From Ezakiella coagulans (GTDB lineage Bacteria > Bacillota > Clostridia > Tissierellales > Peptoniphilaceae), in contig NZ_QEKV01000001.1 of the NCBI RefSeq assembly GCF_003096635.1, positions 133,534 to 197,533 on the forward strand: a DNA stretch of 64,000 nucleotides, written 5' to 3'. Each line of letters starts with the position of its first letter. Within the stretch, counting starts at the first letter, position 1. Positions 17,269 through 31,987 of this stretch are shown one piece after another. A program made the translations under genes and the position numbers. A model generated the notes under the pieces. It searched no databases, was not told the DNA's origin, and saw nothing but the letters and a program-made list of their open reading frames with translations.

Positions 17269-17297
17269 TTGAAAAATTATATGATTAATGATATAAT
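17269..17297 (+). promoter_or_regulatory. Predicted promoter of the cobalamin operon
   Basis: TTGAAA (17269-17274), 17 bp, TATAAT (17292-17297) with an extended TG at 17289-17290. Transcription would start near 17304, immediately before the riboswitch. Confidence 0.75.
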
Positions 17298-17309
17298 TTT
17301 ATGTAGATA

Positions 17310-17435
17310 GATTAAGGGAATACGGTTAAAAACCGAACAGCAACCTCTACTGTATGCCGGAGTATATGCCATTTGCCACTTAACGGGAAGGCGGTATATA
17401 TTTTGATGGCGAGTCAGGATACCTTCAGTTGTACT
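17310..17435 (+). ncRNA. Cobalamin riboswitch (AdoCbl family aptamer)
   Basis: The conserved landmarks occur in order: AGGGAA, an ACGGTT...AACCGA paired element, CAGCAACCTCTACTGTA in place of the usual GC-rich core, GCCACT, GGGAAGGC, GATGGCGAG, and the B12 box GAGTCAGGATACC (about 17420-17432). Riboswitches of this family bind cobalamins and turn off B12 synthesis or uptake genes. It directly precedes the cbi operon, so the operon is almost certainly repressed by its end product. Confidence 0.93.
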
Positions 17436-17496
17436 TTTGGGATTGGGAAGTATGCTGTTTTATGTTGTTCCTTTAAAATAAATTTTTGGAGGATGT

Positions 17497-17565: not shown

Positions 17566-18405
17566 TTGGCGAAGATTATGGTTCAAGGTGCAACTTCTTC
17601 GGCAGGCAAGTCGTTGTTGTGTACCGGTTTATGCAGATATTTTTATAAAAAAGGTTTGAAAGTTTTTCCTTTCAAGTCGCAAAATATGAGTAGAAACGCA
17701 TTTGTCGATGAAGACGGCAACAAAATTGCAACCGCACAGGTCCAACAAGCTTTTGCTTGCAACAGAAAGCCCGATGTCAAGATGAATCCTGTTTTACTGA
17801 TTCCAAAGACCGACGTCGGAAGCACTGTTGTACTTTTCGGAAAAGAGTTCAAGGATATGAAAGCTAGAGAGTATTTCGAGTACAAGAAGGAGCTCCTTCC
17901 GGTAATTGAGAAAACTTTTTCGGAGATTGAATCTGAAAACGACATCATTGTGGTCGAAGGTGCGGGAAGTCCTGCTGAAATAAATTTGAGAGAGAATGAC
18001 ATTGTGAATATGGGCTTGGCGGAACTAGTAGATTTGCCCGTGATTCTTGTTGCGGATATCGACCGCGGCGGAGTTTTTGCATCTCTTTATGGAACGGTCA
18101 TGCTTTTAAGCGAGAACGAAAGAAAGAGAATCAAGGGACTTGTCATAAATAAATTCAGAGGCGACAAAACTCTTCTCGATTCGGGCATAGAGCAAATTGA
18201 AAAGCTTACGGGAATTCCGGTCATAGGAACGATTCCGTATGTGAAGCTCAATATCCCTGACGAAGATTCGCTCGTTGACTACGACAAACCTGCAAATCAT
18301 GGCGGAGTTACCAGGGAAGAATTGGAAATTGAATTTGATAAGCTTATGAATGCGATTGCCGACAATATGGATATGAAATTGGTTGAGGAGATTGCCGGGC
18401 TATGA
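17566..18405 (+). CDS. cbiP: Cobyric acid synthase CbiP lacking the glutamine amidotransferase domain
   Basis: CbiP amidates four side chains of adenosyl-cobyrinate a,c-diamide, using ATP and normally glutamine. This 279-residue protein contains the complete N-terminal synthetase domain: P-loop QGATSSAGKS, KSQNMSRNAF, VVEGAGSPAEINLRENDIVN, ADIDRGGVFASLYGT, INKFRG, and IPYVKLNIPDEDSL. Normal CbiP has about 500 residues, with a class I glutaminase domain following. Here, right after IPDEDSL, the chain jumps to a tail (FDKLMNAIADNMDMKLVEEI) that resembles the normal extreme C-terminus. The whole glutaminase domain is therefore missing by a clean internal deletion, with no frameshift or stop involved. 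It probably uses free ammonia or a separate glutaminase. TTG start at 17566 with GGAGG at 17555-17559. First gene of the operon. Confidence 0.9.
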   Translation: MAKIMVQGATSSAGKSLLCTGLCRYFYKKGLKVFPFKSQNMSRNAFVDEDGNKIATAQVQQAFACNRKPDVKMNPVLLIPKTDVGSTVVLFGKEFKDMKAREYFEYKKELLPVIEKTFSEIESENDIIVVEGAGSPAEINLRENDIVNMGLAELVDLPVILVADIDRGGVFASLYGTVMLLSENERKRIKGLVINKFRGDKTLLDSGIEQIEKLTGIPVIGTIPYVKLNIPDEDSLVDYDKPANHGGVTREELEIEFDKLMNAIADNMDMKLVEEIAGL

Positions 18406-19352
18406 TTAAAATAGTTTTGGCAGCACTCTTAATCGACCTCTTGATCGGCGATCCGGTTTATCCGTTTCACCCGATAAGGCTTATGGGAAAGCTCATTTCC
18501 TTTGAAGAGAAAAAGTTTTTAAAGGAAGATATGAGCGACTATGAAAAATTCGTCGCAGGTAGTGCAGTTGTTGTTTTCAATCTAATATTTTCGTATCTCA
18601 TCACGTATTTTATTATAAAAATTATTCCGGCGGGAATTTTTAGAACGCTTTTTAAAATTTATGTGGTTTATTCGTGCATTTCGCTCAAAGAACTTTCGAA
18701 ATGTGCAAGAAAGGTACGAGAAAAGCTTGAGGTTTCAATTGTCGATGCAAGGCACGAACTCTCTATGATAGTCGGTCGTGATACGGAAAACTTAACGGAA
18801 AAGCAAATTGTGATGGCGACTGTGGAAACTGTTGCGGAAAATGCGAGCGACGGTGTTTTCAGTCCGCTTATATTTGCGTTTTTGTTCGGACCTGCCGGGG
18901 CAATCATGATGAAGATGGCAAATACGATGGATTCAATGATTGGATACGACGACAGCAAGTATTTATATTTTGGTAAAACAGCGGCTCTCACAGACGATGT
19001 TATAAACTTTATCCCGGCAAGACTCACGGCGATTTTCTTTATTTTGGCGGGAGCAGTTTTAGATTTGAACACTCAAAATGGAGTTGAGGTAACTATTAGG
19101 GATTCAAAAAAACACGCAAGTCTTAATGCGGGTTTTCCGGAGTCTGCAATGGCGGGACTTTTGGGAGTTAAACTTTTGGGACCTTCGACATACCATGGAG
19201 TTTTGTCGGACAAGCCGTTTATTGGAAATGACTTGAGAGAAATTAACAGAGACGACATTTTTTTGGCAAACAGAGTTATGTATGTTGCGACAGCTCTTTT
19301 GACAGCCGCTATGTCTATTTTATTATATTCACCGCTCTATGTAGCATTATAA
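18402..19352 (+). CDS. cbiB: Adenosylcobinamide-phosphate synthase CbiB
   Basis: The 316-residue membrane enzyme joins (R)-1-aminopropan-2-ol phosphate (made by CobD) to adenosylcobyric acid. The family motifs LLIGDPVYPFHPIRLMGKLI (N-terminus), ETVAENASDGVFSPL, MANTMDSMIGY, and AGFPESAMAGLLGV are all present, along with several hydrophobic segments. It overlaps the cbiP stop by 4 nt. The length is normal. Confidence 0.96.
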   Translation: MIKIVLAALLIDLLIGDPVYPFHPIRLMGKLISFEEKKFLKEDMSDYEKFVAGSAVVVFNLIFSYLITYFIIKIIPAGIFRTLFKIYVVYSCISLKELSKCARKVREKLEVSIVDARHELSMIVGRDTENLTEKQIVMATVETVAENASDGVFSPLIFAFLFGPAGAIMMKMANTMDSMIGYDDSKYLYFGKTAALTDDVINFIPARLTAIFFILAGAVLDLNTQNGVEVTIRDSKKHASLNAGFPESAMAGLLGVKLLGPSTYHGVLSDKPFIGNDLREINRDDIFLANRVMYVATALLTAAMSILLYSPLYVAL

Positions 19353-19362
19353 GGAGGAAAAT

Positions 19363-20109
19363 ATGAAAGGAATTACAGTTTGTTTTTTTGGAACAACTCA
19401 CATGGACACTTACAACGCATGTATAAAACCGATTTTTGATTATGTTAAGAATGAATATGGAAAAGAATATGAAGTGGAGATGGCATTCACGTCACGAATT
19501 ATAAAGAAAAGGCTGAAAGATAGAGGCGTGATGGACGTAAAAAATGAAAAAGAGGCACTTGATCATTTTAAAAGTCTCGGCATTGATGAGCCGATAGTTT
19601 TCAGCACTCATCTTTTGGAAGGAATCGAGTACGAAAAAATTCTTTCACTTAAGGAATTTTATCCCGGACTTCGAGTTTCAAAATCACTTTTTGCTGACAA
19701 AGATGCAATAAACGAGTTCACAAAGAAAGCAATATTTCCGGAAGATGAATGCACAGTATGGATGGGTCATGGCACAAGTCACGAAGTTGACGACGTTTAT
19801 GATTATTGCGACGAGTGTTTTAAGAAAAACGGCGGAGAAAATGTTTTCGTTGCGACGGTTGAAGGAAGAAGAAGTCTTGAGACAATTTTGCCGGAACTCG
19901 AAAAGTTTAAAGATAAAAAAATCACATTAAGACCGATGATGCTTGTGAGCGGTGACCATGCGAAAAATGATATGGCGGGCGATGAGCCTGATTCATGGAA
20001 AAGCATTCTCACACAAAAAGGTTTTAAAGTCGAAGCAGTTTTGAAGGGGCTTGGCGAGTTTGATTTTGCAAGAGAAATGTTTTACGACAGATTAAAAGAG
20101 GTGCTTTAG
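19363..20109 (+). CDS. cbiK: Anaerobic cobalt chelatase CbiK (sirohydrochlorin cobaltochelatase)
   Basis: The 248-residue enzyme inserts Co2+ into sirohydrochlorin, the committed first step of the oxygen-independent pathway. The metal-binding histidines appear in MGHGTSHEVDD (about residues 129-139) and SGDHAKNDMAGDE (about 197-209). It lacks the signal peptide seen in periplasmic CbiK of sulfate reducers, so it is cytoplasmic. AAGGAGG precedes the ATG at 19363. Its presence shows that cobalt enters early, in line with cbiD and cbiG further down. The sirohydrochlorin supply genes are not in the window. Confidence 0.93.
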   Translation: MKGITVCFFGTTHMDTYNACIKPIFDYVKNEYGKEYEVEMAFTSRIIKKRLKDRGVMDVKNEKEALDHFKSLGIDEPIVFSTHLLEGIEYEKILSLKEFYPGLRVSKSLFADKDAINEFTKKAIFPEDECTVWMGHGTSHEVDDVYDYCDECFKKNGGENVFVATVEGRRSLETILPELEKFKDKKITLRPMMLVSGDHAKNDMAGDEPDSWKSILTQKGFKVEAVLKGLGEFDFAREMFYDRLKEVL

Positions 20110-20111
20110 AG

Positions 20112-20762
20112 ATGAAAAAACTCTACGGCATCGGCACAGGTCCGGGGGCATCTGACTTAATAACAGTTAGAAGTGCAAGACTTATTGAAAATGCCGATGT
20201 AATTTTCGCACCGAACAACAAGGGCAAAAATATGGCACTTGACACGGTTCGCGAGTATATCAAAACTGAAAATATTATTTATCTCGATTTTCCTATGGGA
20301 AAAGTCGGACCGGAAATATACAAAAAGAATCTCGAAATTATCCACGAGAATTTGTCGGACAACAAGTCCGGAGTTTTTATTACGATTGGCGACGCTGCAA
20401 TTTACAGCACATTTATAAATACTCTTTATTTCGATGAGGAAATCTCTTTTGAAATGTCGCCGGGCATTCCATCATTTTTGGCGGCAGCGGACTTCGCAGG
20501 AGTGCCACTTGCAACAAAGGGCAAGAATTTTCTCTTGACCGATGATATCGAAAACGCAAATCTCGATTTTGTCGACAGAATTGCAATTTTAAAAACTTAT
20601 AAAAATAAAAAAGAAGTGATAGAGAAGCTCGAAGCACACAATTTTTCTTATATTTATCTTGAAAATGTTTCGGCGGAAAACGAACTTATACTTCGAGAAA
20701 AAGAAGAAATTTTAGAAAGGGAGAATTATATGTCCCTCATGATTGGATGGAAAAATGAATAA
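20112..20762 (+). CDS. cbiL: Cobalt-factor II C20-methyltransferase CbiL
   Basis: The 216-residue enzyme transfers a methyl group from SAM to C20 of cobalt-factor II. The YGIGTGPGASDLITVRSARLIE N-terminus is characteristic of this corrinoid methyltransferase, as are TIGDAAIYSTFINTL and the MSPGIPSFLAAADFAGVPL stretch. It starts 2 bp after the cbiK stop. Length is slightly short of the usual 230, but all core motifs are present. Confidence 0.94.
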   Translation: MKKLYGIGTGPGASDLITVRSARLIENADVIFAPNNKGKNMALDTVREYIKTENIIYLDFPMGKVGPEIYKKNLEIIHENLSDNKSGVFITIGDAAIYSTFINTLYFDEEISFEMSPGIPSFLAAADFAGVPLATKGKNFLLTDDIENANLDFVDRIAILKTYKNKKEVIEKLEAHNFSYIYLENVSAENELILREKEEILERENYMSLMIGWKNE

Positions 20763-21789
20763 AGGGCATGGTGCAAATATTTTTAAATATTCAAAGAGCG
20801 GAGATCTTCTCGATTTTTCGAGCAATATAAATCCATACGGACCGACCGAGAGGGTCAAGAAAAATATAAGAGAACATCTCGATTTGATTGCAAGATATCC
20901 GGATGTGTCGTATGGAAAACTTTTTGACGTGCTCGAGAAATATCTCGGAGTGGACAAAACACACATTTCACTTGGAAACGGTGCGATGGAAGTGATTGAT
21001 GCGACAATCTCGCTCTATGAAAACATTGTAATATTTGAACCTGCATTTATGGAATACGAAATACGTGCACGAGTGCAAAAGAAAAATATAAAAAAAATAA
21101 ATTTGGATTCATCTTTTAAGCCGAATGTGCACGATTTGGATTTTGATTTAGAAAATACTCTCGTAATTATCACAAGCCCGCACAATCCGAGCGGAGTAAG
21201 TCTTTCAAAAAAAGAGTTCGACGAGATTTATGAAAAAGTTTCAAATAACGGCGGAGCGATTTTGATGGACGAGGCATTTCATGAATTTTCAAGCGTGGAT
21301 TATGACTTGGCAAAAGAAATATCGAAATACAAAAATTTGTTTGTGGTGAGAGCTGCGACAAAATTTTTCTCGCTTCCGGGTTTAAGACTCGGATATTTGG
21401 TTTCGAATTTCAAAAACGATATTGATAACCACATTCCTACGTGGTCTGTTTCATCGCTTGTTGAAAATTTGGGAGAGGATTTACTTTTGGATGAGGAGTT
21501 TATTATATCATCGAAAGCGAAACTAGCAAAATCCAGAGATAAGCTCTTTTTGGAGCTTAAAAAAATAGATGGAATTCATCCGCTTCCGTCGGACGCAAAC
21601 TATATATTGATTAAAACGGACTTTGACAACGAAATGTTATTTCAAAATCTCTTAAAAAAAGGGATTTTGGTCAGAAAGTGTGATAATTATGCAAATTTGG
21701 GGCATCAATATATAAGAGTTGCTGTAAAAAAAGACGAGGATAATGAAAAGCTTTTAAAAGCTTTAAAGGAGGAAAAAAATGGAAGATAA
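20755..21789 (+). CDS. cobD: L-threonine-O-3-phosphate decarboxylase CobD
   Basis: This PLP enzyme makes (R)-1-aminopropan-2-ol phosphate for CbiB. The 344-residue form starts at ATG 20755 with MNKGHGANIF, the usual family start. An ATG at 20743 is also in frame but lies deeper inside cbiL. The fold-type I motifs are DFSSNINPYGP, SPHNPSG, MDEAFHEF, and the PLP-lysine stretch RAATKFFSLPGLRLGY with Lys near 203. It overlaps cbiL by 8 nt and cbiA by 11 nt. Confidence 0.92.
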   Translation: MNKGHGANIFKYSKSGDLLDFSSNINPYGPTERVKKNIREHLDLIARYPDVSYGKLFDVLEKYLGVDKTHISLGNGAMEVIDATISLYENIVIFEPAFMEYEIRARVQKKNIKKINLDSSFKPNVHDLDFDLENTLVIITSPHNPSGVSLSKKEFDEIYEKVSNNGGAILMDEAFHEFSSVDYDLAKEISKYKNLFVVRAATKFFSLPGLRLGYLVSNFKNDIDNHIPTWSVSSLVENLGEDLLLDEEFIISSKAKLAKSRDKLFLELKKIDGIHPLPSDANYILIKTDFDNEMLFQNLLKKGILVRKCDNYANLGHQYIRVAVKKDEDNEKLLKALKEEKNGR

Positions 21790-23107
21790 TAAACGAAATA
21801 CATTAAGAAAACTTATGATAACGGCGCCGTCTTCCAACACAGGAAAGACGCTTATAAGCACCGCTTTAATAAAATTATTTAAGGAATTGGACCTTGAAGT
21901 TATGGGAGCAAAGACAGGTCCTGACTATATAGATGCTGAATATTTAACCTATGCTTCCGGCAAGAAGAGTGAAAACTTCGACCTATTTTTGATGGACGAA
22001 GATTTAATAAGAAGTAAAATTAATAAAATCGCTGTGAAAAATGATGTGCTTCTCGTCGAGGGAGTCATGGGATACTTTGACGGTTCAGGAAACACGTTTG
22101 AAGCAAGTAGCTTTGACCTTTCGAAGAAGCTTGATATAGGTGCAATTCTTCTTTACGAACCTAAGGGAGAAATGTTTACGATGGTTCCTAAGATTAAGGG
22201 AATGGTTGATTTCAGCGAAGGCCAAATTAAAGGTGTTATATTTAATAAAACAAGTAAAAAGATTTATGATATGATTGCACCGCAAATTGAAAAATACGTA
22301 GGCATTAGTGCACTCGGATATATTCCACGTGACAGAAGGCTTGAAATTCACGAAAGAAGTTTGGGACTTATAAGGCCGAAAGAAGTCGAAGATATCGATG
22401 AAAGGCTCAATATAATCACCAATCAAATGAAGCAGACTGTTGACATAAGGGGAGTGCTCATGGCTGCTACACAACAAACAAGTGAACAGGATAAAATTCA
22501 GGAAAATCCATTTAAGAAATACAAGATTTTAATGGCAAATGATGATGCGTTCTGTTTCCACTATGATTCTGAACTATATGATGCAGCGACATTCTTCTCA
22601 CCACTTGAAGACAAAGAAATTCCGGCTGATACTGATTTGGTTGTTATCGGCGGAGGATATCCTGAACTCTTCAGATACCAACTTTCAAAAAATGAATCAA
22701 TGATGAATTCACTTCGAGAATATCATAGAAAAGGTGGAAGAATTATAGCTTATGGTGGAGGACTTATCTATCTTTCAAAAAGAATTGGAGAAGTGCCTAT
22801 GGTAGGAATTTTCCCGGGACTTTCATCAATGACAAAGAACCTGATCCATTTCGGTTACCAAAAGGCGGTAATCGAAGATGAATGGCTTGGTACACAACGT
22901 GGTGAATTCAATGCACGTGAATATCACCGTGGGATTTATGAAACTTCAAGCAGATCGATGCTCACATTGAGTAAACCGAGCGACGAAACAGGCGAAACAA
23001 GACACAGCGACGGATACAAGGAAAGAAATGCTTACGGTTCATACAGCCACGCTCACCCGGATGCTGTAAGCAATATGATTTTACAATTTTTGGAAAGGAA
23101 AATTTAA
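21779..23107 (+). CDS. cbiA: Cobyrinate a,c-diamide synthase CbiA with catalytic Cys of the glutaminase domain replaced
   Basis: CbiA amidates the a and c side chains of cobyrinic acid. The 442-residue protein has both usual domains. The synthetase domain shows P-loop APSSNTGKT (about 16-24), GPDYIDAEY and VEGVMGYFDG. The C-terminal class I amidotransferase fold shows NDDAFCFHYD, VIGGGYPELF and SYSHAHPDA. The nucleophile motif, normally AECGGL, reads A324-Y-G-G-G-L329 (GCT TAT GGT GGA GGA CTT at 22748-22765). Cys is Gly326 and the preceding Glu is Tyr. A conventional glutaminase reaction is therefore impossible, so ammonia must come from solution. ATG 21779 follows AAAGGAGG. The frame is otherwise intact. 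Confidence 0.92.
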   Translation: MEDNKRNTLRKLMITAPSSNTGKTLISTALIKLFKELDLEVMGAKTGPDYIDAEYLTYASGKKSENFDLFLMDEDLIRSKINKIAVKNDVLLVEGVMGYFDGSGNTFEASSFDLSKKLDIGAILLYEPKGEMFTMVPKIKGMVDFSEGQIKGVIFNKTSKKIYDMIAPQIEKYVGISALGYIPRDRRLEIHERSLGLIRPKEVEDIDERLNIITNQMKQTVDIRGVLMAATQQTSEQDKIQENPFKKYKILMANDDAFCFHYDSELYDAATFFSPLEDKEIPADTDLVVIGGGYPELFRYQLSKNESMMNSLREYHRKGGRIIAYGGGLIYLSKRIGEVPMVGIFPGLSSMTKNLIHFGYQKAVIEDEWLGTQRGEFNAREYHRGIYETSSRSMLTLSKPSDETGETRHSDGYKERNAYGSYSHAHPDAVSNMILQFLERKI

Positions 23108-23733
23108 TGTATATAAAGAATCCGAAAAAAATTGAAAGCAATTCAATGGATATTATTGCCCCGTATTTAAGTGATGTGACGTTTACAGAAGGGGAACTCC
23201 CTATTGTTAAGCGTATGATTCATACGACGGGCGATGTTGACTACAGACATATTATCGAATTTCAAAATAATTTCGTTGAAAGAGCTATTGCGGCAATGAA
23301 AAAGGGCGGCAAGATTTACGCCGACACAAATATGATTACAGCAGGTGTGAACAAGCCGGCACTTGAAAAGGCGAATATTGAAGTTTTCACCTGTGTTTCC
23401 GATGAGGATGTTCGAAAAATAGCAAAGGAAAAAGAGATAACTCGTTCAATGGCAGCAATAGACAAAGCTATAAATGACGGCGTTACAATGTTTGCGTTCG
23501 GGAACGCGCCGACAGCACTCTTTAGACTTATCGAACATATAAAAGCAGGCGATATTTCTCCGGATTTCATCATCGGCGTACCGGTCGGATTTGTTGGAGC
23601 GGCTGAATCGAAAGAGGAACTTTCGACAGTTGAAGTGCCTTTTGTAAGGACGAATGGCTCAAAGGGTGGCTCAAATGTTGCGGTTTCAGTTATAAATGCA
23701 CTTTTATACAGTTTTATCGAGAGGGATTTTTAG
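23107..23733 (+). CDS. cbiC: Cobalt-precorrin-8 methylmutase CbiC
   Basis: The 208-residue enzyme moves a methyl group from C11 to C12, giving cobyrinic acid. The catalytic histidine lies in RMIHTTGDVDY (about residue 38). YADTNMITAGVNK, FAFGNAPTALFRL and IIGVPVGFVGAAESKE are the other family motifs. ATG 23107 overlaps the end of cbiA by 1 nt. Length is normal. Confidence 0.96.
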   Translation: MYIKNPKKIESNSMDIIAPYLSDVTFTEGELPIVKRMIHTTGDVDYRHIIEFQNNFVERAIAAMKKGGKIYADTNMITAGVNKPALEKANIEVFTCVSDEDVRKIAKEKEITRSMAAIDKAINDGVTMFAFGNAPTALFRLIEHIKAGDISPDFIIGVPVGFVGAAESKEELSTVEVPFVRTNGSKGGSNVAVSVINALLYSFIERDF

Positions 23734-24804
23734 TTGGAAGAAAAATTGCTTGGAAAAGGTCATGAGATTTATGAAAATGGGCTCCGCCTCGGCTACACAA
23801 CGGGAAGTTGTGCAACTGCGGCGGCTCTTTCTGCTGCAAAAATGCTTATGAACGATGAGAGCGATATACTTAAACTCGAAACGCCGTCGGGTATAACCTT
23901 GATTTTGGAAGTTTTGAATAAAAAAATCGAGGGAGAGTACGCTTATTCCGAGATAAGAAAAAGTTCGGGCGACGATCCGGACGTGACGGACGGAATTTTA
24001 ATCGGTGCAAAAGTCAGAAAGAGAAATGACGACAAGATTGTCATTACCGGCGGCGAGGGAGTAGGCACAATAAAACGCAAAGGGCTTTTTGGAAAAGTCG
24101 GCGAACATGCAATAAACCCGACACCGAGAAAAATGATTCAAGATGCACTGAAACCTTTTGGCGGTTTCGACGTCGAGATTTATGTTCCAAATGGTCGGGA
24201 AATCGCAAAGAAGACATACAATGAAAATATGGGGATTGAAGGCGGAATCTCAATTATAGGAACGACGGGCATCGTTCATCCGATGAGCGAAAAAGCACTT
24301 CTCGACACAATCAAACTCGAACTCAACATGAACAAAGAGGAGTATGGAACCGATGAAATTGTTTTGGTTCCGGGGAGTTACGGCAAGGATATGCTCAAAA
24401 AAATGAACGTTGAAAAACCCGCAGTTGAGATGAGTAACTATGTCGGAGATGCTCTAAAGATGGCACTCGAAGACGGTTTTAAGAAAATTATTTTAGTCGG
24501 GCATATCGGCAAGTTTTCAAAGCTTTCAATTGGAATTTTCAACACTCACTCAAACGTTTCGGACACGAGAATGGAGGCGTTCGTTTACTATTTATTTAAA
24601 ATGAATGCGAAGAGAGAGGACGTACTTAAAATTTGCAGCCAAAACACCGCCGAGATTGCGATGAATATGGCGATTGATATGGGATACAGTGAGGTAATAA
24701 AACTTATGGAAAAGGGCGCCGAGGAAAGAGTTCGAAGATATCTTAAAAAGAGCGACCTCGATGTGAAAGTTATTATCTATTCTATGGAAAGAGGAGTGAT
24801 TTAA
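23734..24804 (+). CDS. cbiD: Cobalt-precorrin-5B (C1)-methyltransferase CbiD
   Basis: The 356-residue enzyme methylates C1 after ring contraction and is found only in the anaerobic pathway. The RLGYTTGSCATAAALSAA N-terminus, GDDPDVTDG, GGEGVGTIKRKGL and the LVGHIGKFSKLSIGIFNTHS stretch identify it. TTG start at 23734 directly after the cbiC stop, with GAGGGA upstream. Length is normal. Confidence 0.96.
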   Translation: MEEKLLGKGHEIYENGLRLGYTTGSCATAAALSAAKMLMNDESDILKLETPSGITLILEVLNKKIEGEYAYSEIRKSSGDDPDVTDGILIGAKVRKRNDDKIVITGGEGVGTIKRKGLFGKVGEHAINPTPRKMIQDALKPFGGFDVEIYVPNGREIAKKTYNENMGIEGGISIIGTTGIVHPMSEKALLDTIKLELNMNKEEYGTDEIVLVPGSYGKDMLKKMNVEKPAVEMSNYVGDALKMALEDGFKKIILVGHIGKFSKLSIGIFNTHSNVSDTRMEAFVYYLFKMNAKREDVLKICSQNTAEIAMNMAIDMGYSEVIKLMEKGAEERVRRYLKKSDLDVKVIIYSMERGVI

Positions 24805-25406
24805 TGATTTATGTTGTTGGAATAGGACCGGGCAATCCGAAATATCTGACAAATATTGCAGAGGATATTATTTTTAAAAGTGACTATGTGCTTTCGTACA
24901 AGCGAGTAAAAGAAACTATAGAGCCAATGGCTAAGATTATTGAAATAGATAGCTTAAAAGAAATTACAGATTTCTTGAATGAACACATGAACGAAGACGT
25001 CGACATTTCGGTTTTGGCTTCGGGGGACCCGAGTTTTTTCGGAATCGGTGAATATCTTTCAAAAAGATATAAGATAAAAACAATTCCGGGTATTTCTTGC
25101 GTTTCGTACATGGCGGGATACGAAAACATTTCATTAAATGACGTCACTTCGATTTCTTTTCACGGTCGTGAGCTGAACAAAGATTTGATTTCAAATGACA
25201 AGCTTATGATTTATACGGATTCGAAAAATAATCCGGACAGTATTTCAAAATGGCTTTATGGCGAAGGATACAGAGGAAAGATTGTCGTTGGCTTTAATCT
25301 AAGCTACGATGACGAAGCTGTCGATAGATATGAAATCGGTGATGATATTGAAATTAAAAGCGATTTGAATCTTATGTATGTGGAGATTTTAAATGAGAGC
25401 AATTAA
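24804..25406 (+). CDS. cbiE: Cobalt-precorrin-7 C5-methyltransferase CbiE
   Basis: The 200-residue SAM-dependent enzyme methylates C5 and works with CbiT. VVGIGPGNPKYLTNIA, LASGDPSFFGIGEYL and the PGISCVSYMAGY stretch are typical. In many genomes cbiE and cbiT are one fused gene; here they are separate and overlap by 14 nt. The start overlaps the cbiD stop by 1 nt. Confidence 0.94.
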   Translation: MIYVVGIGPGNPKYLTNIAEDIIFKSDYVLSYKRVKETIEPMAKIIEIDSLKEITDFLNEHMNEDVDISVLASGDPSFFGIGEYLSKRYKIKTIPGISCVSYMAGYENISLNDVTSISFHGRELNKDLISNDKLMIYTDSKNNPDSISKWLYGEGYRGKIVVGFNLSYDDEAVDRYEIGDDIEIKSDLNLMYVEILNESN

Positions 25407-25932
25407 TGACGCTCTTTTTATCCGCGGCGACATACCGATGACGAAGCGTACAATTCGTGCTTATATAATGGATGCACTCGACATAGAAAGAGGCGACAAA
25501 GCTCTTGACGTCGGGGCAGGCACGGGAAGCGTTTCGGTTGAGATGGCACTTCGCGGAGCAGAAGTTAGAGCAATTGAAATAGAAGAAGAGGGCATAAGTT
25601 TAATAAACCAAAATGCTGAAAAGTTCGGCGTGAAAATTGAAACGAAAAATTTGATGGCTCCCGATGGAATCAGGGGCGAAATGTACGACAAAATTTTCAT
25701 CGGTGGAACAAAGGGGAGAATGAAGGAGATAATTGACGCGGCATACGACAGTTTAAAAGTCGGCGGCACAATTGTTCTAACATTTATTTTGCCAAAGAAC
25801 TATACAGAGGCAATGGCTCTTATGCACGAATTCAAAGAAGTTGAATCGACGCTCATTCAAACGTCGGAGATAAATAAAATCGGAATGATGATTGCGAACA
25901 ATCCTATTTTTTTGATTAGAGGTGTTAAATGA
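25393..25932 (+). CDS. cbiT: Cobalt-precorrin-6B (C15)-methyltransferase, decarboxylating, CbiT
   Basis: The 179-residue class I SAM methyltransferase methylates C15 and removes the acetate carboxyl on C12. The family start IRGDIPMTKRTIRAYIM is followed by the SAM-binding motif LDVGAGTGSVSVEMAL. IFIGGTKGRMKEII and the GGTIVLTFILPKN strand complete the fold. Overlaps cbiE by 14 nt and cbiF by 4 nt. Confidence 0.95.
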   Translation: MRAINDALFIRGDIPMTKRTIRAYIMDALDIERGDKALDVGAGTGSVSVEMALRGAEVRAIEIEEEGISLINQNAEKFGVKIETKNLMAPDGIRGEMYDKIFIGGTKGRMKEIIDAAYDSLKVGGTIVLTFILPKNYTEAMALMHEFKEVESTLIQTSEINKIGMMIANNPIFLIRGVK

Positions 25933-26699
25933 TATTTTTTGTTGGAGCAGGTCCGGGCGACCCGGATTTGATAACTATAAAGGGAAGAAAACTTTTGGAA
26001 GAAGCTGACGTCGTGATTTATGCGGGGAGTCTCGTTTCAAAAAGACAGCTTGATTATGTGAGAGAAGATGCGGAAGTATACAATTCCGCAACAATGAATC
26101 TCGATGAAGTCATGGAAGTATTTTTGAAAGCGGAGAAGGAAAAGAAGACCACTGTACGTCTTCACACGGGCGACCCGGGAATCTACGGTGCAATTGCGGA
26201 ACAGATGAGAGAACTCGACAAGCACGACATTTACTACGAAGTTGTGCCGGGCGTTTCAAGTTTCTCCGCTGCGAATGCAGAGCTTAAAAAGGAAATGACA
26301 CTTCCGGGCGTAACGCAAACTATAATCATTACGAGAATGGCGGGAAGAACGCCGGTTCCGGAAGGACAAAGTCTTGCTGAGCTTTCGAAGCACCATGCAA
26401 CGATGGCGATTTTCCTTTCGATTTCTATGATTGAAGACGTTTGCAAAGAACTTTTGGAGGGCTACACCGAAGAAACGCCGATTGCAGTTGTCTATCGTGC
26501 AACATGGGCGGACCAAAAAATTGTCACGGGAACAATTTCTGACATTGCGGAAAAAGTTCGTTTCGAAAATATTGGAAAGCAAGCGATGATTTTGGTCGGA
26601 GATTTTTTGGATACGGATTTTGAACTCTCAAAACTTTACGACAAGCATTTCGAAACGGAATACAGAAAAGCGGTTCCGAAGAAAGATAAAGATGAGTAA
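25929..26699 (+). CDS. cbiF: Cobalt-precorrin-4 C11-methyltransferase CbiF
   Basis: The 256-residue enzyme methylates C11. The FVGAGPGDPDLITIKGRKLL start, YAGSLVSK, HTGDPGIYGAIAEQM and the VVPGVSSFSAA stretch are diagnostic. ATRATWADQKIV-like sequence (YRATWADQKI) near residue 190 is also conserved. Overlaps cbiT by 4 nt and cbiG by 8 nt. Confidence 0.96.
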   Translation: MIFFVGAGPGDPDLITIKGRKLLEEADVVIYAGSLVSKRQLDYVREDAEVYNSATMNLDEVMEVFLKAEKEKKTTVRLHTGDPGIYGAIAEQMRELDKHDIYYEVVPGVSSFSAANAELKKEMTLPGVTQTIIITRMAGRTPVPEGQSLAELSKHHATMAIFLSISMIEDVCKELLEGYTEETPIAVVYRATWADQKIVTGTISDIAEKVRFENIGKQAMILVGDFLDTDFELSKLYDKHFETEYRKAVPKKDKDE

Positions 26700-27657
26700 A
26701 ACTGCGGTTGTCACATTCACCGACGGAGGGCTTGAGCTCTACAAAAGGCTCAGAATAAACGGCGATTTGTATTTCAACAAAAAATTGACCGGCGGCGTCA
26801 AAAAATATATGCCGAAAATCATGCGTGACTACGATGCGGTCATATTTATTTCGGCATGCGGAATCGCAGTCAGAATGATTAAGGACTACATCGTTTCAAA
26901 AGACACGGACCCTGCGGTCATCGTGATGGACGAATGCGGAAAATTTGTCATTCCGATTCTTTCGGGGCACCTCGGCGGTGCAAATGAACTTGCGACAAAG
27001 ATTGCAAATCGAATCGGTGCGACAGCTGTTGTGACGACGGCGTCGGATTCACATGGCGTGGAGTCAATCGATATGTTTGCAAAAAAACATTCGCTCGTAA
27101 TTGAGGATATAAAGAGTATCGCACCCGTTATGGCGAGAATTGTCGAAAAGCGTAAAGTCATAATCAAAAATGACACAGCTTTTAAATACGAATATCCGTT
27201 TGTTGCCGAAAACGAAGAGGAGGCCGAAGCGGCACTTGTTATTTCGTCGACGGTGTATAATTTTTCAGTTCCGACAACCTCTTTAAGACTGAGGGAACTT
27301 GTTGTCGGAATCGGAGCAAAGAGAGGAACACCAAAGGAAACGGTTTTGAAAGCACTCGAAAATGCTTTCGAAATGAAAAAACTTTCAATTCTTTCGATTG
27401 TAAAATTTGTTTCTATTGATTTGAAAAAAGATGAAGTTGGAATCGTTGAAGCGGCGAAAGAACTGAAGGTTCCTTTCGAAACATATTCCGATAAAGTCTT
27501 GAATGAAGTCGAAGGCGAGTTTGAGGAATCGGAATTTGTGAAAAAAACAACCGGATGCGGTGCTGTGTCTGCAAGGGCGGCGGCATTGTTCGGAGATTTG
27601 ATAATTGAAAAATATGTTTATAATGGAGTTACAATATCAATTGGAAAGGTGAGGTAA
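26692..27657 (+). CDS. cbiG: Cobalt-precorrin-5A hydrolase CbiG
   Basis: The 321-residue enzyme opens the delta-lactone and releases acetaldehyde, a step special to the anaerobic route. FISACGIAVRMIKDYI, SGHLGGANELA, ATVVTTASDSHG-like sequence (AVVTTASDSHGV), VVGIGAKRGTP and TTGCGAVSARAA are conserved. The frame is open back to 26620, but the natural start is ATG 26692, which overlaps the cbiF stop in the common ATGAGTAA pattern. Confidence 0.94.
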   Translation: MSKTAVVTFTDGGLELYKRLRINGDLYFNKKLTGGVKKYMPKIMRDYDAVIFISACGIAVRMIKDYIVSKDTDPAVIVMDECGKFVIPILSGHLGGANELATKIANRIGATAVVTTASDSHGVESIDMFAKKHSLVIEDIKSIAPVMARIVEKRKVIIKNDTAFKYEYPFVAENEEEAEAALVISSTVYNFSVPTTSLRLRELVVGIGAKRGTPKETVLKALENAFEMKKLSILSIVKFVSIDLKKDEVGIVEAAKELKVPFETYSDKVLNEVEGEFEESEFVKKTTGCGAVSARAAALFGDLIIEKYVYNGVTISIGKVR

Positions 27658-27658
27658 A

Positions 27659-28378
27659 ATGCTTTATATTATAGGAATTGGACCGGGCGGAAAAGAGAGA
27701 ATGACGCTCGAAGCGGTTCAAAAAATAAAAGAATCCGACGTTATCGTCGGCTATAAACCATATATCGAATATGTTTCGGAATTTTTAACGGATCAGGAGA
27801 CTTTTTCAACCGGCATGACGGGCGAAATTGAAAGATGTAAAAAAGCGATTGAGTTTGCAGAGGGAGGCAAAAACGTTACAATCATTTCAACGGGAGACGC
27901 CGGACTTTATGGAATGGCGGGACCGGTCATCGAACTTTTAAAAGACAGTGACGTCAAGTTTGAAGTGGTACCGGGAGTGAGTGCAGTCTTCAGTGCTGCG
28001 GCTGACCTTGGAGCACCGCTTATGATGGACACAGCAATCATAAGTCTTTCGGACCTTCTTGTGAGCTATGAAAAAATAAAAAAACGCGTTGAGCTCGCTG
28101 CGGAAGCTGATTTTGTAATTTCTCTTTATAATCCGAGAAGCAAGGGCAGACCGGATTATTTGAATGAAGCGATTCAAATTATTAAAAAATACCGTAAGGG
28201 CACAACACCTGTCGGCATCGTTAGAAATTCGGGCAGAGACGATTTTAGTAAAGAGATTGCAACGCTCGACACAATTGACTGCGAATCTGTCGACATGAAG
28301 ACAATTGTCATTATCGGAAACAGCACAAGCTACATTCACGGCGACACTATTATAACCAAAAGAGGCTATGATATATGA
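27659..28378 (+). CDS. cbiH: Cobalt-factor III (precorrin-3B) C17-methyltransferase CbiH
   Basis: The 239-residue SAM enzyme methylates C17 and drives ring contraction. Motifs: IIGIGPGGKERMTLEA, STGDAGLYGMAGPV, VVPGVSAVFSAAADLGAPL, SLYNPRSKGRPDYL. It begins 1 bp after the cbiG stop. Length is typical of the single-domain form. Confidence 0.96.
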   Translation: MLYIIGIGPGGKERMTLEAVQKIKESDVIVGYKPYIEYVSEFLTDQETFSTGMTGEIERCKKAIEFAEGGKNVTIISTGDAGLYGMAGPVIELLKDSDVKFEVVPGVSAVFSAAADLGAPLMMDTAIISLSDLLVSYEKIKKRVELAAEADFVISLYNPRSKGRPDYLNEAIQIIKKYRKGTTPVGIVRNSGRDDFSKEIATLDTIDCESVDMKTIVIIGNSTSYIHGDTIITKRGYDI

Positions 28379-29109
28379 TTTGGATTTTAGGCGGAACACA
28401 CGAGGTTCCGCTTTTACTTGATAAACTTTCAAATTATGACAATATAATTGTCACGGTTACGACCGATGAAGCACGTGAATTTCTGCCGAAAGATTTGAAA
28501 GTGCGAGTTGGGAGTATGACGGAAGAGGAGAAATTATCTTTTGTTAAAGAGAACGACATAAATCTCATCGTCGACATGACGCATCCGTTTGCAAGACATA
28601 TAAAAAAGTCAATCGCGGACTTTTCAAAAAAATACAATATAGATTTTGTACGATTCAACAGAAAGGTCACAAGTTTTTCTGAAGATTATATTATTTATGT
28701 GAAAAGTTACGATGAAGCGGAGAAATTTATCTCGTCGCACCCGGGCACATATTTTTTCACGACGGGTGTTAACGAATGCGAAAGATTTTTGAAAGTTAAA
28801 AACGATAGCAGAATGATTTTCAGAATTCTTCCGAGTGTTAAAAGCATTGAAAAAATTTCAGAGCTCGGAGTTCCGATGAAGGACATCTGTGCGATGCTTG
28901 GACCTTTTGATGAAGAATTAAACACAGCACTCATAAAAACTTATGATGCGGATTATCTCGTAACAAAAAACAGCGGCGAAGGTTCGGGAACGAAAGAAAA
29001 ACTTCTCGCTGCAAAAAATGTGGGCATCAAAGTGGTTATGATTGAAGCGGAAGAAGAAAACGGCATTCAGAGCATGGATGAATTAATAAAAATTTTGGGG
29101 GAATATTGA
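28375..29109 (+). CDS. cbiJ: Cobalt-precorrin-6A reductase CbiJ
   Basis: The 244-residue NAD(P)H-dependent reductase reduces cobalt-precorrin-6A. WILGGTHEVPLLLDKL replaces the usual GGTxE-type start, and VDMTHPFARHI, FTTGVNECERF and AMLGPFDEELN are family motifs. YLVTKNSGEGSGTKEKLLAA near the C-terminus is a strong match. Overlaps cbiH by 4 nt. Confidence 0.94.
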   Translation: MIWILGGTHEVPLLLDKLSNYDNIIVTVTTDEAREFLPKDLKVRVGSMTEEEKLSFVKENDINLIVDMTHPFARHIKKSIADFSKKYNIDFVRFNRKVTSFSEDYIIYVKSYDEAEKFISSHPGTYFFTTGVNECERFLKVKNDSRMIFRILPSVKSIEKISELGVPMKDICAMLGPFDEELNTALIKTYDADYLVTKNSGEGSGTKEKLLAAKNVGIKVVMIEAEEENGIQSMDELIKILGEY

Positions 29110-30188
29110 TGGGAATTTTAGAAGAAACAATTGAAAGTATAAAGGGAGTAGATAAAAAGGCGTTTGAACTTCCAAGAAAAGAATGGGACAGCATTGCACA
29201 CCCGACCGGCTCTTTGGGAGAACTCGAAGAACTTACAATAAAAATCGCGGGAATTCAAGGCAATATTTTTCCACTTGTTAAAAGTAGAGCGCTCATAGTT
29301 ATGGCATCGGACAATGGAATTATCGAGGAAAATGTTTCTAGCGGTTATCCGGATCTTACAAGTCAACTCGTTTATTCGATGGCACAAAGAAAAACCGGAG
29401 CTGCGAACATGTGTCTTGAAACAGATACTGAAATTTATGTTGTGGACATCGGAACAAGGCGTGAAATAAATCACGAAAATGTGCTCCACTTCAGGATAAA
29501 CAGCGAAACCAAAAACTTCAGAAAAGAACCGGCGATGACTGTTGAAGAAGCAACAAAAGCGATTGAAACCGGAATTTATATGGTCGACGAACTTGTAAAG
29601 AAGGGTATCGACATTTTCGGAACCGGCGAACTCGGAATCGGAAACACGACAACTTCGGCGGCAGTTCTTGCTGCCCTTCTAAAGACTGACGGTGAAACGA
29701 CTTGCGGACTCGGTGCAGGTGTCACAAATGAAGGACTAAAAAACAAAGTGAATGTCGTGAACGAAGCGATAAAAAAATATGACTTATACAATAAAACCCC
29801 TCTCGAAATTCTCGCATGCGTCGGCGGATATGATATATGCGGACTTGTCGGTGTATTTTTGGGTGCCGCAAAGCACAAAAAAGTTGCGGTCATAGACGGA
29901 TTTATTTCCGCAATTGCAGCACTTGTTGCGGTAAGAATGAACGAACACGTCATAGACTACATCATTCCGAGCCACAGAAGCAGAGAAAAGCAAGTGGAAC
30001 TTGTGTTCAACGAACTCGGACTTCACCCGACGCTCTACCTTTCAATGCGACTTGGCGAAGGAACCGGATGTATGCTCCTCTTTAAAATTTTAGACACGGC
30101 GGTCTATCTCATGAGAAATATGGGAAGATATGAAGAAATTGAAATTCTTCCTGACGTGCTTGTAAATATCAGGGATAAAAATGATTAG
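29109..30188 (+). CDS. cobT: Nicotinate-nucleotide:dimethylbenzimidazole phosphoribosyltransferase CobT
   Basis: The 359-residue enzyme activates the lower ligand base to an alpha-ribotide for the nucleotide loop. PTGSLGELEEL, ASDNGIIEENVS, GTGELGIGNTTTSAAVLAAL and VNEAIKKY are conserved. The catalytic glutamate lies in MRLGEGTGCML near residue 318. A TTG at 29106 is in frame just before, but ATG 29109, with GGGGGA at 29097-29102, is the better start. No lower-ligand synthesis genes are seen, so the base used may be scavenged or may not be dimethylbenzimidazole. Confidence 0.95.
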   Translation: MGILEETIESIKGVDKKAFELPRKEWDSIAHPTGSLGELEELTIKIAGIQGNIFPLVKSRALIVMASDNGIIEENVSSGYPDLTSQLVYSMAQRKTGAANMCLETDTEIYVVDIGTRREINHENVLHFRINSETKNFRKEPAMTVEEATKAIETGIYMVDELVKKGIDIFGTGELGIGNTTTSAAVLAALLKTDGETTCGLGAGVTNEGLKNKVNVVNEAIKKYDLYNKTPLEILACVGGYDICGLVGVFLGAAKHKKVAVIDGFISAIAALVAVRMNEHVIDYIIPSHRSREKQVELVFNELGLHPTLYLSMRLGEGTGCMLLFKILDTAVYLMRNMGRYEEIEILPDVLVNIRDKND

Positions 30189-30714
30189 CATTGTTACGGG
30201 AGGTGCAAGAAGCGGGAAGTCCGAATTTGCGGAGAGCCTAATAAAAGGCGATGCGATTTATATTGCGACCGCTGAAAACTACGACGACGAGATGGACCTC
30301 AGGATAAAAAAACATGTAAAGCGTCGTGATGAATCGGGAATAAAATGGCGAACTGTCGAATGTTTGAAGAATTTTGACGAACTTTCGGGTGAGGAAAAAT
30401 ATGTACTATTCGATTCGCTCGGAGTTTTCGTTTCCAATATTATGTTTTCAAAAACGGCGGACGACTTGAGCGATAAGTCGATTGAAGAAACGATTCTCGT
30501 AGTGCGAAAAGAACTCGAAAAATTGCTCGATTGGGCGAGAGAAAATGACAAGGAACTTGTGATCGTGACTGACGAAGTTGGAATGAGTATAATTCCGGAG
30601 TCGAAAGTTGCAAGAGTATATCGAGATTTAATCGGGACAATAAACAAAGAGGTCGCTGCAAAATGTGATAGAGCATATTTTGTTTGCATGGGACTTGAGG
30701 TGAGACTGAAATGA
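30181..30714 (+). CDS. cobU: Adenosylcobinamide kinase / cobinamide-phosphate guanylyltransferase CobU
   Basis: The 177-residue bifunctional enzyme phosphorylates adenosylcobinamide and adds GMP. The N-terminal P-loop TGGARSGKSEFAE is diagnostic. A histidine in the conserved helix (KKHVKRRDE, about residue 43) is the likely guanylylated residue by family precedent. VTDEVGMSIIPESKVARVYRD is also typical. Overlaps cobT by 8 nt and cobS by 4 nt. Confidence 0.95.
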   Translation: MISIVTGGARSGKSEFAESLIKGDAIYIATAENYDDEMDLRIKKHVKRRDESGIKWRTVECLKNFDELSGEEKYVLFDSLGVFVSNIMFSKTADDLSDKSIEETILVVRKELEKLLDWARENDKELVIVTDEVGMSIIPESKVARVYRDLIGTINKEVAAKCDRAYFVCMGLEVRLK

Positions 30715-31454
30715 AAATTTTAGAATCCATAGTTGTTGCATTTCAATTTTTAACGAGATTCTATCTCCCGATAAATGTCGAGTGGGACACAGGAAATTTG
30801 AGAAGGAGCCTCATGTGGTTCGGACTTGTGGGTGCATTTATCGGTGTAATTCTTGCAGGAGCAATGACACTTTTTAACCGGTTTGATTTGATTCCGGCAG
30901 TATCGGCAATAATAATTTTACTCATTTGGATATTCATAACCGGCGGAATGCACATCGACGGCATAAGCGATATGGCGGACGGATTCTTCTCGATGCGTAA
31001 CAAAGAAAAGACACTGGAAATAATGAAAGACAGTCACGTTGGTGCTTTCGGAGTCATTACAATTGTATTTTTGCTTTTAATCAAATTTGAAATGCTTAAA
31101 GAATTTATCATAATCGAAAAAAATGTGTGGCTTCTCATATTGCCGCCGACAATTGCAAGAATTGCCGCAGGGTTCGTGCTCTCGTTTTATGAAACAACGA
31201 AAAAAAGCGGACTCGGCTACACATTTCACAGCTCCGACCCACGTATATTTTGGGCAATCGGATTTATCGTAACGCTTATAATTTCCTCAATTCTAAATAT
31301 AAAATCGCTCATTTTCATCGGTATCGCAATTTTGGCTTCAAACCTTATGGCACTTTGGGCAAAGAAAAAAATCGGCGGACTGAACGGCGACATCTATGGA
31401 GCGATTGTTGAAACGGTTGAAGTTATAGGGATGGTGTTTATATGTGCCGTTTAA
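30711..31454 (+). CDS. cobS: Adenosylcobinamide-GDP ribazoletransferase CobS (cobalamin synthase)
   Basis: The 247-residue integral membrane enzyme joins adenosylcobinamide-GDP with alpha-ribazole. AFQFLTRF near the start, GGMHIDGISDMADGFFS (about 80-97) with the acidic metal-binding residues, and MKDSHVGAFGV are diagnostic. About six hydrophobic helices follow. Overlaps cobC by 13 nt. Confidence 0.95.
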   Translation: MKILESIVVAFQFLTRFYLPINVEWDTGNLRRSLMWFGLVGAFIGVILAGAMTLFNRFDLIPAVSAIIILLIWIFITGGMHIDGISDMADGFFSMRNKEKTLEIMKDSHVGAFGVITIVFLLLIKFEMLKEFIIIEKNVWLLILPPTIARIAAGFVLSFYETTKKSGLGYTFHSSDPRIFWAIGFIVTLIISSILNIKSLIFIGIAILASNLMALWAKKKIGGLNGDIYGAIVETVEVIGMVFICAV

Positions 31455-31987
31455 TTTTAATAAGGCATGAAATGTCGGTTGGAAATTTGACGCATACATT
31501 TGCCGGAAAAGAAGTAAAACTTGCGACAATTGGAAAACTTCGCACAAAAAATACGAGAAGAGAATTTAATAAGTTAAAACTGAAGAATCCGATTTTTATT
31601 GCAAGCGAATACAAAAGAGCACAGGAGACCGCGAAATACGTTCTACAAAAAAAATATTATGAAAAACTTCGCGTGACAAAATATGTAAATGAAATCGATT
31701 TCGGCGACCTCGTCGGAAGGACTTTCAAAGAAAATATCGAACATTACGGCGAGAGTTTGAACGAATGGATGTTGGGACCGGACAGAACTGCCCCGCCGAG
31801 CGGCGAAAGTTTTCAAAATGCATTTAAAAGAGTAAAAATATTTTTGGATAAAATAAAACTTTATGAAGGGGATATTGTGGTTTTCACGCACGAGGGATTT
31901 ATACAACTCGTGCTCGGATACGAGAACAAAAAAATAAAAACGCAAAAAATAAAAAATGGGAAAATAAAAATAGTGAATATAAGATAA
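31442..31987 (+). CDS. cobC: Histidine-phosphatase family protein, probable alpha-ribazole phosphatase CobC
   Basis: The 181-residue protein carries the phosphohistidine motif as LIRHEMS (RHE instead of the common RHG), with a second catalytic histidine in VVFTHEGFIQLVLG. ASEYKRAQETA supplies the expected acidic and basic pocket residues. CobC removes the phosphate from alpha-ribazole phosphate or cobalamin phosphate. The family has many members with other substrates, so the assignment relies on its place as last gene of the B12 operon, overlapping cobS by 13 nt. Confidence 0.85.
   Translation: MCRLILIRHEMSVGNLTHTFAGKEVKLATIGKLRTKNTRREFNKLKLKNPIFIASEYKRAQETAKYVLQKKYYEKLRVTKYVNEIDFGDLVGRTFKENIEHYGESLNEWMLGPDRTAPPSGESFQNAFKRVKIFLDKIKLYEGDIVVFTHEGFIQLVLGYENKKIKTQKIKNGKIKIVNIR

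Follow-up and report, generated by a model that had tools for sequence, protein, structure and literature searches.

The window, that is, the whole stretch of 64,000 nucleotides of Ezakiella coagulans DNA that was analysed, carries in one gene run the anaerobic set of cobalamin genes cbiP, B, K, L, (cobD/C), A, C, D, E, T, F, G, H, J, cobT, U, S, and cobC (Table 1), cbiP being the first gene after a cobalamin riboswitch. Every gene of the run is open and its product is above a Pfam or an NCBIfam cut-off, with the CbiK, CbiL, CobD/CobC-like, and CobC-like proteins falling below the NCBIfam equivalog cut-offs and above those of Pfam. The first 80 bases of the cbiG open reading frame (ORF), 26620-26699, lie within the end of cbiF, and Pfam homology in cbiG begins at residue 64, and because of this the true start of cbiG is probably downstream of the ORF start. 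Further along the window are two giant ORFs, 45019-50886 (1955 aa) with no Pfam match at E 0.001 and 50954-59248 (2764 aa) with Big_6 Ig-like repeats, both of which probably code for large surface proteins.

Table 1. Features of the cobalamin gene run; positions are those of the window.
Feature	Position	Strand	Evidence
Cobalamin riboswitch ahead of the cluster	17271..17444	+	Rfam RF00174, 54.7 bits (gathering 31.5)
cbiP/cobQ, putative cobyric acid synthase without glutaminase domain (279 aa)	17566..18405	+	NF001989 372.8 bits, profile 2-264 of 480
CbiP junction and retained C-terminal helix, ~230 profile positions excised	18283..18402	+	Profile blocks and model helices
cbiB	18402..19352	+	PF03186
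cbiK, cobaltochelatase	19363..20109	+	PF06180; NF047852 below cut-off
cbiL-like C20-methyltransferase	20112..20762	+	PF00590; NF004058 below cut-off
CobD/CobC-like threonine-phosphate decarboxylase or aminotransferase	20743..21789	+	PF00155; TIGR01140 below cut-off
cbiA, putative cobyrinate a,c-diamide synthase (442 aa), predicted dead glutaminase domain	21779..23107	+	NF002204, TIGR00379
GATase_3 domain kept in CbiA (aa 249-427)	22523..23059	+	PF07685 82.4 bits
AYGGGL, nucleophile-elbow position, Gly326 for Cys	22748..22765	+	Codon reading and alignment
cbiC	23107..23733	+	PF02570
cbiD	23734..24804	+	PF01888
cbiE	24804..25406	+	TIGR02467
cbiT	25393..25932	+	TIGR02469
cbiF	25929..26699	+	TIGR01465
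cbiG	26620..27657	+	PF11760, PF11761, PF01890
cbiH	27659..28378	+	TIGR01466
cbiJ	28375..29109	+	PF02571
cobT	29106..30188	+	PF02277
cobU	30181..30714	+	PF02283
cobS	30711..31454	+	PF02654
cobC-like alpha-ribazole phosphatase	31442..31987	+	PF00300; TIGR03162 below cut-off

The CbiA protein matches its curated families over the full length and above their cut-offs (NF002204, 332.1 bits against 254; TIGR00379, 266.1 bits against 261.4), and from the operon and the conserved synthetase residues it would be expected to have cobyrinate a,c-diamide synthase activity. The original prediction was that AECGGL, the motif with the glutaminase nucleophile, has become AYGGGL, and the codons bear this out: gct tat ggt gga gga ctt reads A324 Y325 G326 G327 G328 L329, which places Gly326 in the column where the CbiA/CobB family has its catalytic Cys. 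The remainder of the domain was said to be preserved and it is, because PF07685 matches the whole of the GATase_3 domain listed in Table 1, and VIGGGYPELF, SYSHAHPDA, and His424 are all present. In the AlphaFold2 model of CbiA (mean pLDDT 93.9) residue 326 lies at the turn that joins strand 322-325 to helix 327-332, i.e., the usual nucleophile elbow. Since the nucleophile is lost though the fold is kept, hydrolysis of glutamine by the normal mechanism would not be expected, as had been claimed, and the C94G mutant of GatD, discussed below, supports this by analogy. A search of solved-structure sequences at E 0.001 gave no relative of CbiA or CbiP. Fold searches matched CbiA to CTP synthase, dethiobiotin synthetase, HisH, and GatD and ranked dethiobiotin synthetase first for CbiP; they confirm the folds of the two proteins and add nothing on mechanism.

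It was also claimed that CbiA is the second amidating enzyme of this pathway with the same loss. This is true in that the glutaminase of CbiP is gone as well, but in CbiP the whole domain is missing and not the nucleophile alone. The window CbiP has 279 aa compared to about 500 in the full-length form; its synthetase domain is above the curated cut-offs (NF001989, 372.8 bits against 273; TIGR00313, 328.1 bits against 309.9) and a Pfam scan of the protein gave no GATase_3 match. On a profile of 497 positions that was built in this analysis from full-length CbiPs, it aligns as an N block at 3-240 and a C-tail block at 471-495, and positions 240-471 are absent. The C-tail match is weak on its own, here (E=0.4) and in many other short CbiPs (E up to 1), yet the pattern is uniform in all 51 short CbiPs examined, with the N block ending at about 231-251 and the C-tail block beginning at about 441-472. 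Because the tail block is present in 51/51, the alignments indicate that short CbiP arose when the glutaminase domain was excised from within the protein and the C-terminal helix was kept, and on this evidence truncation is ruled out. In the AlphaFold2 model of short CbiP (mean pLDDT 92.8) the linker is loose at 235-238 and the last two helices, 250-267 and 270-277, are folded.

Homologues were surveyed in 149 genomes, namely, that of E. coagulans and 148 relatives. Alignment with relatives, which the original prediction had put forward as a check, showed that AYGGG is genus-wide and that loss of the Cys is widespread in the class and recurrent. All five CbiAs of the genus (G000, G001, G002, G004, G005) have AYGGG, none has the Cys, and all have Tyr325 in place of the usual Glu next to it; the sixth genus genome, G003, which is 71% complete, had no CbiA match. 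CbiA was matched in 66/149 genomes and the Cys column could be read in 65, of which 31 had lost the Cys and 34 had kept it, a CbiA fragment at a contig edge in G116 being unreadable and left out of the counts. Among 139 aligned CbiA proteins this column has Cys in 101, Gly in 26, Ala in 10, and Ser in 2, and the partner His is also missing in eight rows. CbiP length is bimodal across the survey. Two full-length CbiPs show point decay (the Cys is lost in G006, and the 444-aa protein of G007 is degenerate), while in G044, G064, and G085 CbiP keeps its Cys and CbiA has lost it. Six genomes (G092, G104, G117, G129, G133, and G137; loci L117-L122) have a short CbiP and no CbiA match, i.e., a cobyric acid synthase whose partner one stage earlier in the pathway was not matched. 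GATase_3-like stretches with internal stops were seen in G120 (contig C50, bases 198-731; L090) and in G113 (contig C28, which also holds a split CbiP; L123), and these look like remnants of a second B12 locus that has decayed. Eight more short-CbiP genomes, with different junctions, came from outside the relatives in a sample of 391 genomes across the class, the fragmentary matches in G445, G456, and G496 being unclassified. Judged by their sequences, the two B12 amidases of many relatives of this gut-type anaerobe have also lost their glutamine-handling parts.

Trees were made by a quick method and both skip named loci identical to a genome row. The tree of the CbiP synthetase domain (115 rows, 50 of them short) needs at least seven changes between full and short forms, with the interrupted CbiPs of G227 and G261 (391 and 399 aa) counted as full and with the 185-aa second copy of G113, L191, L201, L220, and L236 left out, and the CbiA tree (139 rows) needs at least nine changes between Cys and no Cys. 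These counts carry no direction; we infer that the direction is loss because short CbiPs still have the C-terminal helix and the normal form is the more common of the two. When the two proteins were cross-tabulated (n=100, after dropping L220, which ends at a locus edge), short CbiP occurred with a lost CbiA Cys in 30 rows and with a kept Cys in 10, and full CbiP with a kept Cys in 55 and with a lost Cys in five (Fisher p 4e-12, uncorrected for kinship). Kinship-free pairs gave, on average, 1.5 concordant and 0.0 discordant of five starred pairs with a median p of 1, and the independent events in this test are too few to establish a link between the two losses.

If the two enzymes do not hydrolyse glutamine themselves, a separate glutaminase subunit could feed ammonia to CbiA and CbiP in trans, like GatD does for MurT, a pair which shows that a GATase_3 subunit may exist as a protein of its own (PMC3266927, PMC5871853). 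In the E. coagulans genome nothing except CbiA is above the PF07685 cut-off, and thus no stand-alone GATase_3 was found; three weaker PF07685 matches are DJ-1-like, PurL, and GuaA, and the only proteins above the PF00117 cut-off are GuaA and a PuuD-like hydrolase (labels assigned by hand). This search covered the PF07685 and PF00117 families. There is also no extra GATase gene inside the B12 cluster. Of 42 genomes searched, 39 of which have a short CbiP, 36 have no PF07685 match above cut-off outside CbiA and CbiP. The other six have nine such matches: in G113 and G120 these contain internal stops, and the remaining four genomes (G104, G117, G129, and G137) belong to family f16 and have a short CbiP and no CbiA match. 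Because of these extra matches a trans partner is possible in f16, but the f16 matches of 202-219 aa may be HisH. On the PF07685 and PF00117 searches a separate subunit is not supported for the window's genome, and as an explanation it is unlikely.

A cell-wide loss of glutaminases was considered and rejected: in the E. coagulans genome both GuaA and PurL keep the Cys, in GICYGAQ and GICNGFQ, respectively, and because they do, the cell presumably contains glutamine. CTP synthase was full length with GICLG in all eight loci read, four of which belong to genomes that have a short CbiP and lack glutamine synthetase (G094, G115, G136, and G147), and no CTP synthase (PF06418) was matched in the six genus genomes, G003 being 71% complete. 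The E. coagulans genome gave no match to the Amt ammonium transporter. The type of NadE was discarded as a marker: the best match in this genome is of the 264-aa short type, and among the matches listed many full-CbiP relatives share it. The PurL-type glutaminase with GICNGFQ lies at the end of a 1652-codon frame in locus L150 of this genome (C7:40000-50000) with a PurD-like start, MKVLIVGGGAREYAIG, which is an apparent PurD-PurL fusion by labels assigned by hand, and weak PF07685 matches occur in frames of 1641-1656 aa in seven relatives, G001, G004, G005, G007, G020, G051, and G064.

Short and mutated proteins can also mark a decaying pathway whose enzymes no longer work; decayed copies do exist in G120 and G113, and four proteins of the run miss their equivalog cut-offs. 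We consider decay quite improbable here because the genes of the run are all open and pass a cut-off, the riboswitch is in place, the form is common to many families, and the synthetase residues are invariant. Thus, S19, G22, K23, T24, K45, G47, P48, D49, I51, D52, E94, M97, G98, D101, and G102 do not vary in 53 CbiAs, nor does H424 of the dead glutaminase, and S19, G22, K23, T24, G47, P48, D49, I51, D52, E94, D101, and others were invariant in a comparison of 20 CbiAs too. Between the window CbiA and that of G004 identity is 70% in the GATase half and 69% in the N half; for the GATase half dN is 0.22 and, because dS is saturated (about 3.2), no dN/dS figure is given. Set against the N half, the GATase half changes a little faster in comparisons of Cys-less proteins (ratio 0.92-0.97) than in those of Cys-bearing proteins (0.98-1.04). 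With the two halves conserved to the same degree against G004, the domain is presumably held by selection for something besides glutaminase chemistry, either structure or substrate binding. On the gene set and these signs of conservation, function is probably kept.

That CbiA hydrolyses glutamine with another nucleophile is more doubtful still. Tyr325, which is constant in the genus, could be one and the Ser found in G142 and G120 another, but the replacements are mostly Gly and Ala (26 and 10 of 38), the partner His is lost in some rows, and CbiP lacks a glutaminase domain altogether. A sequencing or assembly error is refuted because the CbiAs of relatives share the Cys loss, which recurs in unrelated assemblies with differing residues.

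Glutamine synthetase was scored as PF00120, which is present in 89/149 genomes and was matched in none of the six genus genomes (G003 being 71% complete). In a table of 83 genomes, comprising relatives and 11 genomes of the class sample in which CbiP and PF00120 were scored, at least one B12 glutaminase is lost in 30/30 genomes without PF00120 and in 22/53 with it, some of these PF00120 matches being atypical 630-655-aa proteins of unsure function, the dropping of which would shift intact genomes such as G148, G289, G311, and G331 to the PF00120-negative side. Of the other 31 of the 53, which have no loss, five lack a CbiA that could be scored, and 35 more full-CbiP genomes outside this table, with CbiA unread, are all PF00120-positive. 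Where both proteins were scored, loss against no loss is 29 to 0 without PF00120 and 13 to 26 with it (Fisher p 3e-9, uncorrected for kinship). Outside the relatives PF00120 is absent in 2/8 short-CbiP genomes compared to 0/38 full-CbiP genomes. The kinship-free pair test of PF00120 against glutaminase loss was not significant (median p of 1), independent-pair tests overall giving averages of 1.1-1.5 concordant and 0.0 discordant of five pairs. Loss of glutamine synthetase as the sole driver is not upheld, given this pair test and the 2/8 outside the relatives, and the atypical PF00120 proteins and the missing Amt match also speak against a simple causal role, but it is a plausible contributor to glutaminase loss.

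Because both enzymes have lost their glutamine-handling parts, they most likely use ammonia directly, and we propose with good confidence that the CbiA and CbiP of the window are ammonia-dependent amidases. Neither appears to have a functional glutaminase in cis, and the genome has no stand-alone partner of the same family. In the proposed mechanism the N-terminal synthetase domain would activate the acetate or propionate side chains of the corrin with ATP, as usual, and the nitrogen would come from free NH3/NH4+ instead of from glutamine hydrolysed in cis. The GATase_3 domain of CbiA would stay as a structural, catalytically dead partner, and in CbiP the domain is gone as a whole, the C-terminal helix alone having been kept. 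The sequences, the domain architecture, the conservation, the recurrence, and the absence from the genome of any other GATase_3 above cut-off are direct observations; from them we infer ammonia to be the substrate in vivo, and the best reading is that free ammonia serves all six ring amidations. The lack of a glutamine synthetase match in the genus is in favour of this. Against the use of ammonia are the intact GuaA and PurL, by which glutamine is presumably available, the missing Amt match, the pH dependence of GatD/MurT described below, the 10/40 short-CbiP rows that keep the CbiA Cys, the 5/60 full-CbiP rows that have lost it, and the extra GATase_3-like proteins in the four f16 short-CbiP genomes. 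We lean, with some caution, towards a broader proposal, that many anaerobic Clostridia have a glutamine-free B12 route that arose repeatedly by excision in CbiP and point inactivation in CbiA, accompanied in the main lineage by loss of glutamine synthetase, so that nitrogen economy would have reshaped two enzymes and left GuaA, PurL, and PyrG intact where these were looked at. No new enzyme chemistry would be involved; what is new would be the repeated loss of glutaminases from the B12 pathway. If this is the case, a group of likely B12 makers that does without both glutaminases would change the annotation of these genes, as short CobQs can look truncated, the enzymes would be natural, compact, and ammonia-driven ones for B12 production, and the pathway would be a clean case of a fused glutaminase lost repeatedly.

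No prior description of these losses was found in searches of the open-access literature. Papers on the Salmonella CbiA and CbiP may describe the use of ammonia by the normal enzymes. A 2020 review names glutamine as the source of nitrogen for both CobB and CobQ/CbiP (PMC7242693); a cell-free B12 system was likewise supplied with glutamine for the six amide groups (PMC10449867). Compared to glutamine-hydrolysing CbiA/CobB, the window CbiA has the same two-domain architecture, synthetase residues, gene context, and above-cut-off scores but Gly in place of the nucleophile, and compared to glutamine-hydrolysing CbiP/CobQ, the window CbiP has the N-terminal synthetase and the C-terminal helix but no GATase_3. 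The direct precedent for the change in CbiA is GatD of S. aureus, also a GATase_3-family glutaminase, in which the same Cys-to-Gly change, C94G, tested in vitro at pH 8.5, abolished glutamine use and did not affect the amidation that MurT carries out with NH3 (PMC3266927); GatD/MurT differs in having separate subunits and a cell-wall substrate. Free ammonia may be a poor substrate because GatD/MurT used it in vitro only at pH 8.5 and not at neutral pH (PMC3266927). Human CPS1 takes external ammonia and keeps an inactive glutaminase-like domain with Ser294 for the catalytic Cys (PMC4655335), which makes it a parallel for CbiA only, and it is another synthetase with another substrate. The counterpart of short CbiP is the single-domain, type N NadE, a synthetase which has no glutaminase domain and is ammonia-only; its use of ammonia has been proposed to be ancestral (PMC3376133), whereas in CbiP the loss would be secondary, since the C-terminal helix of full-length CbiP is still there in the short form, and would have occurred several times by internal excision.
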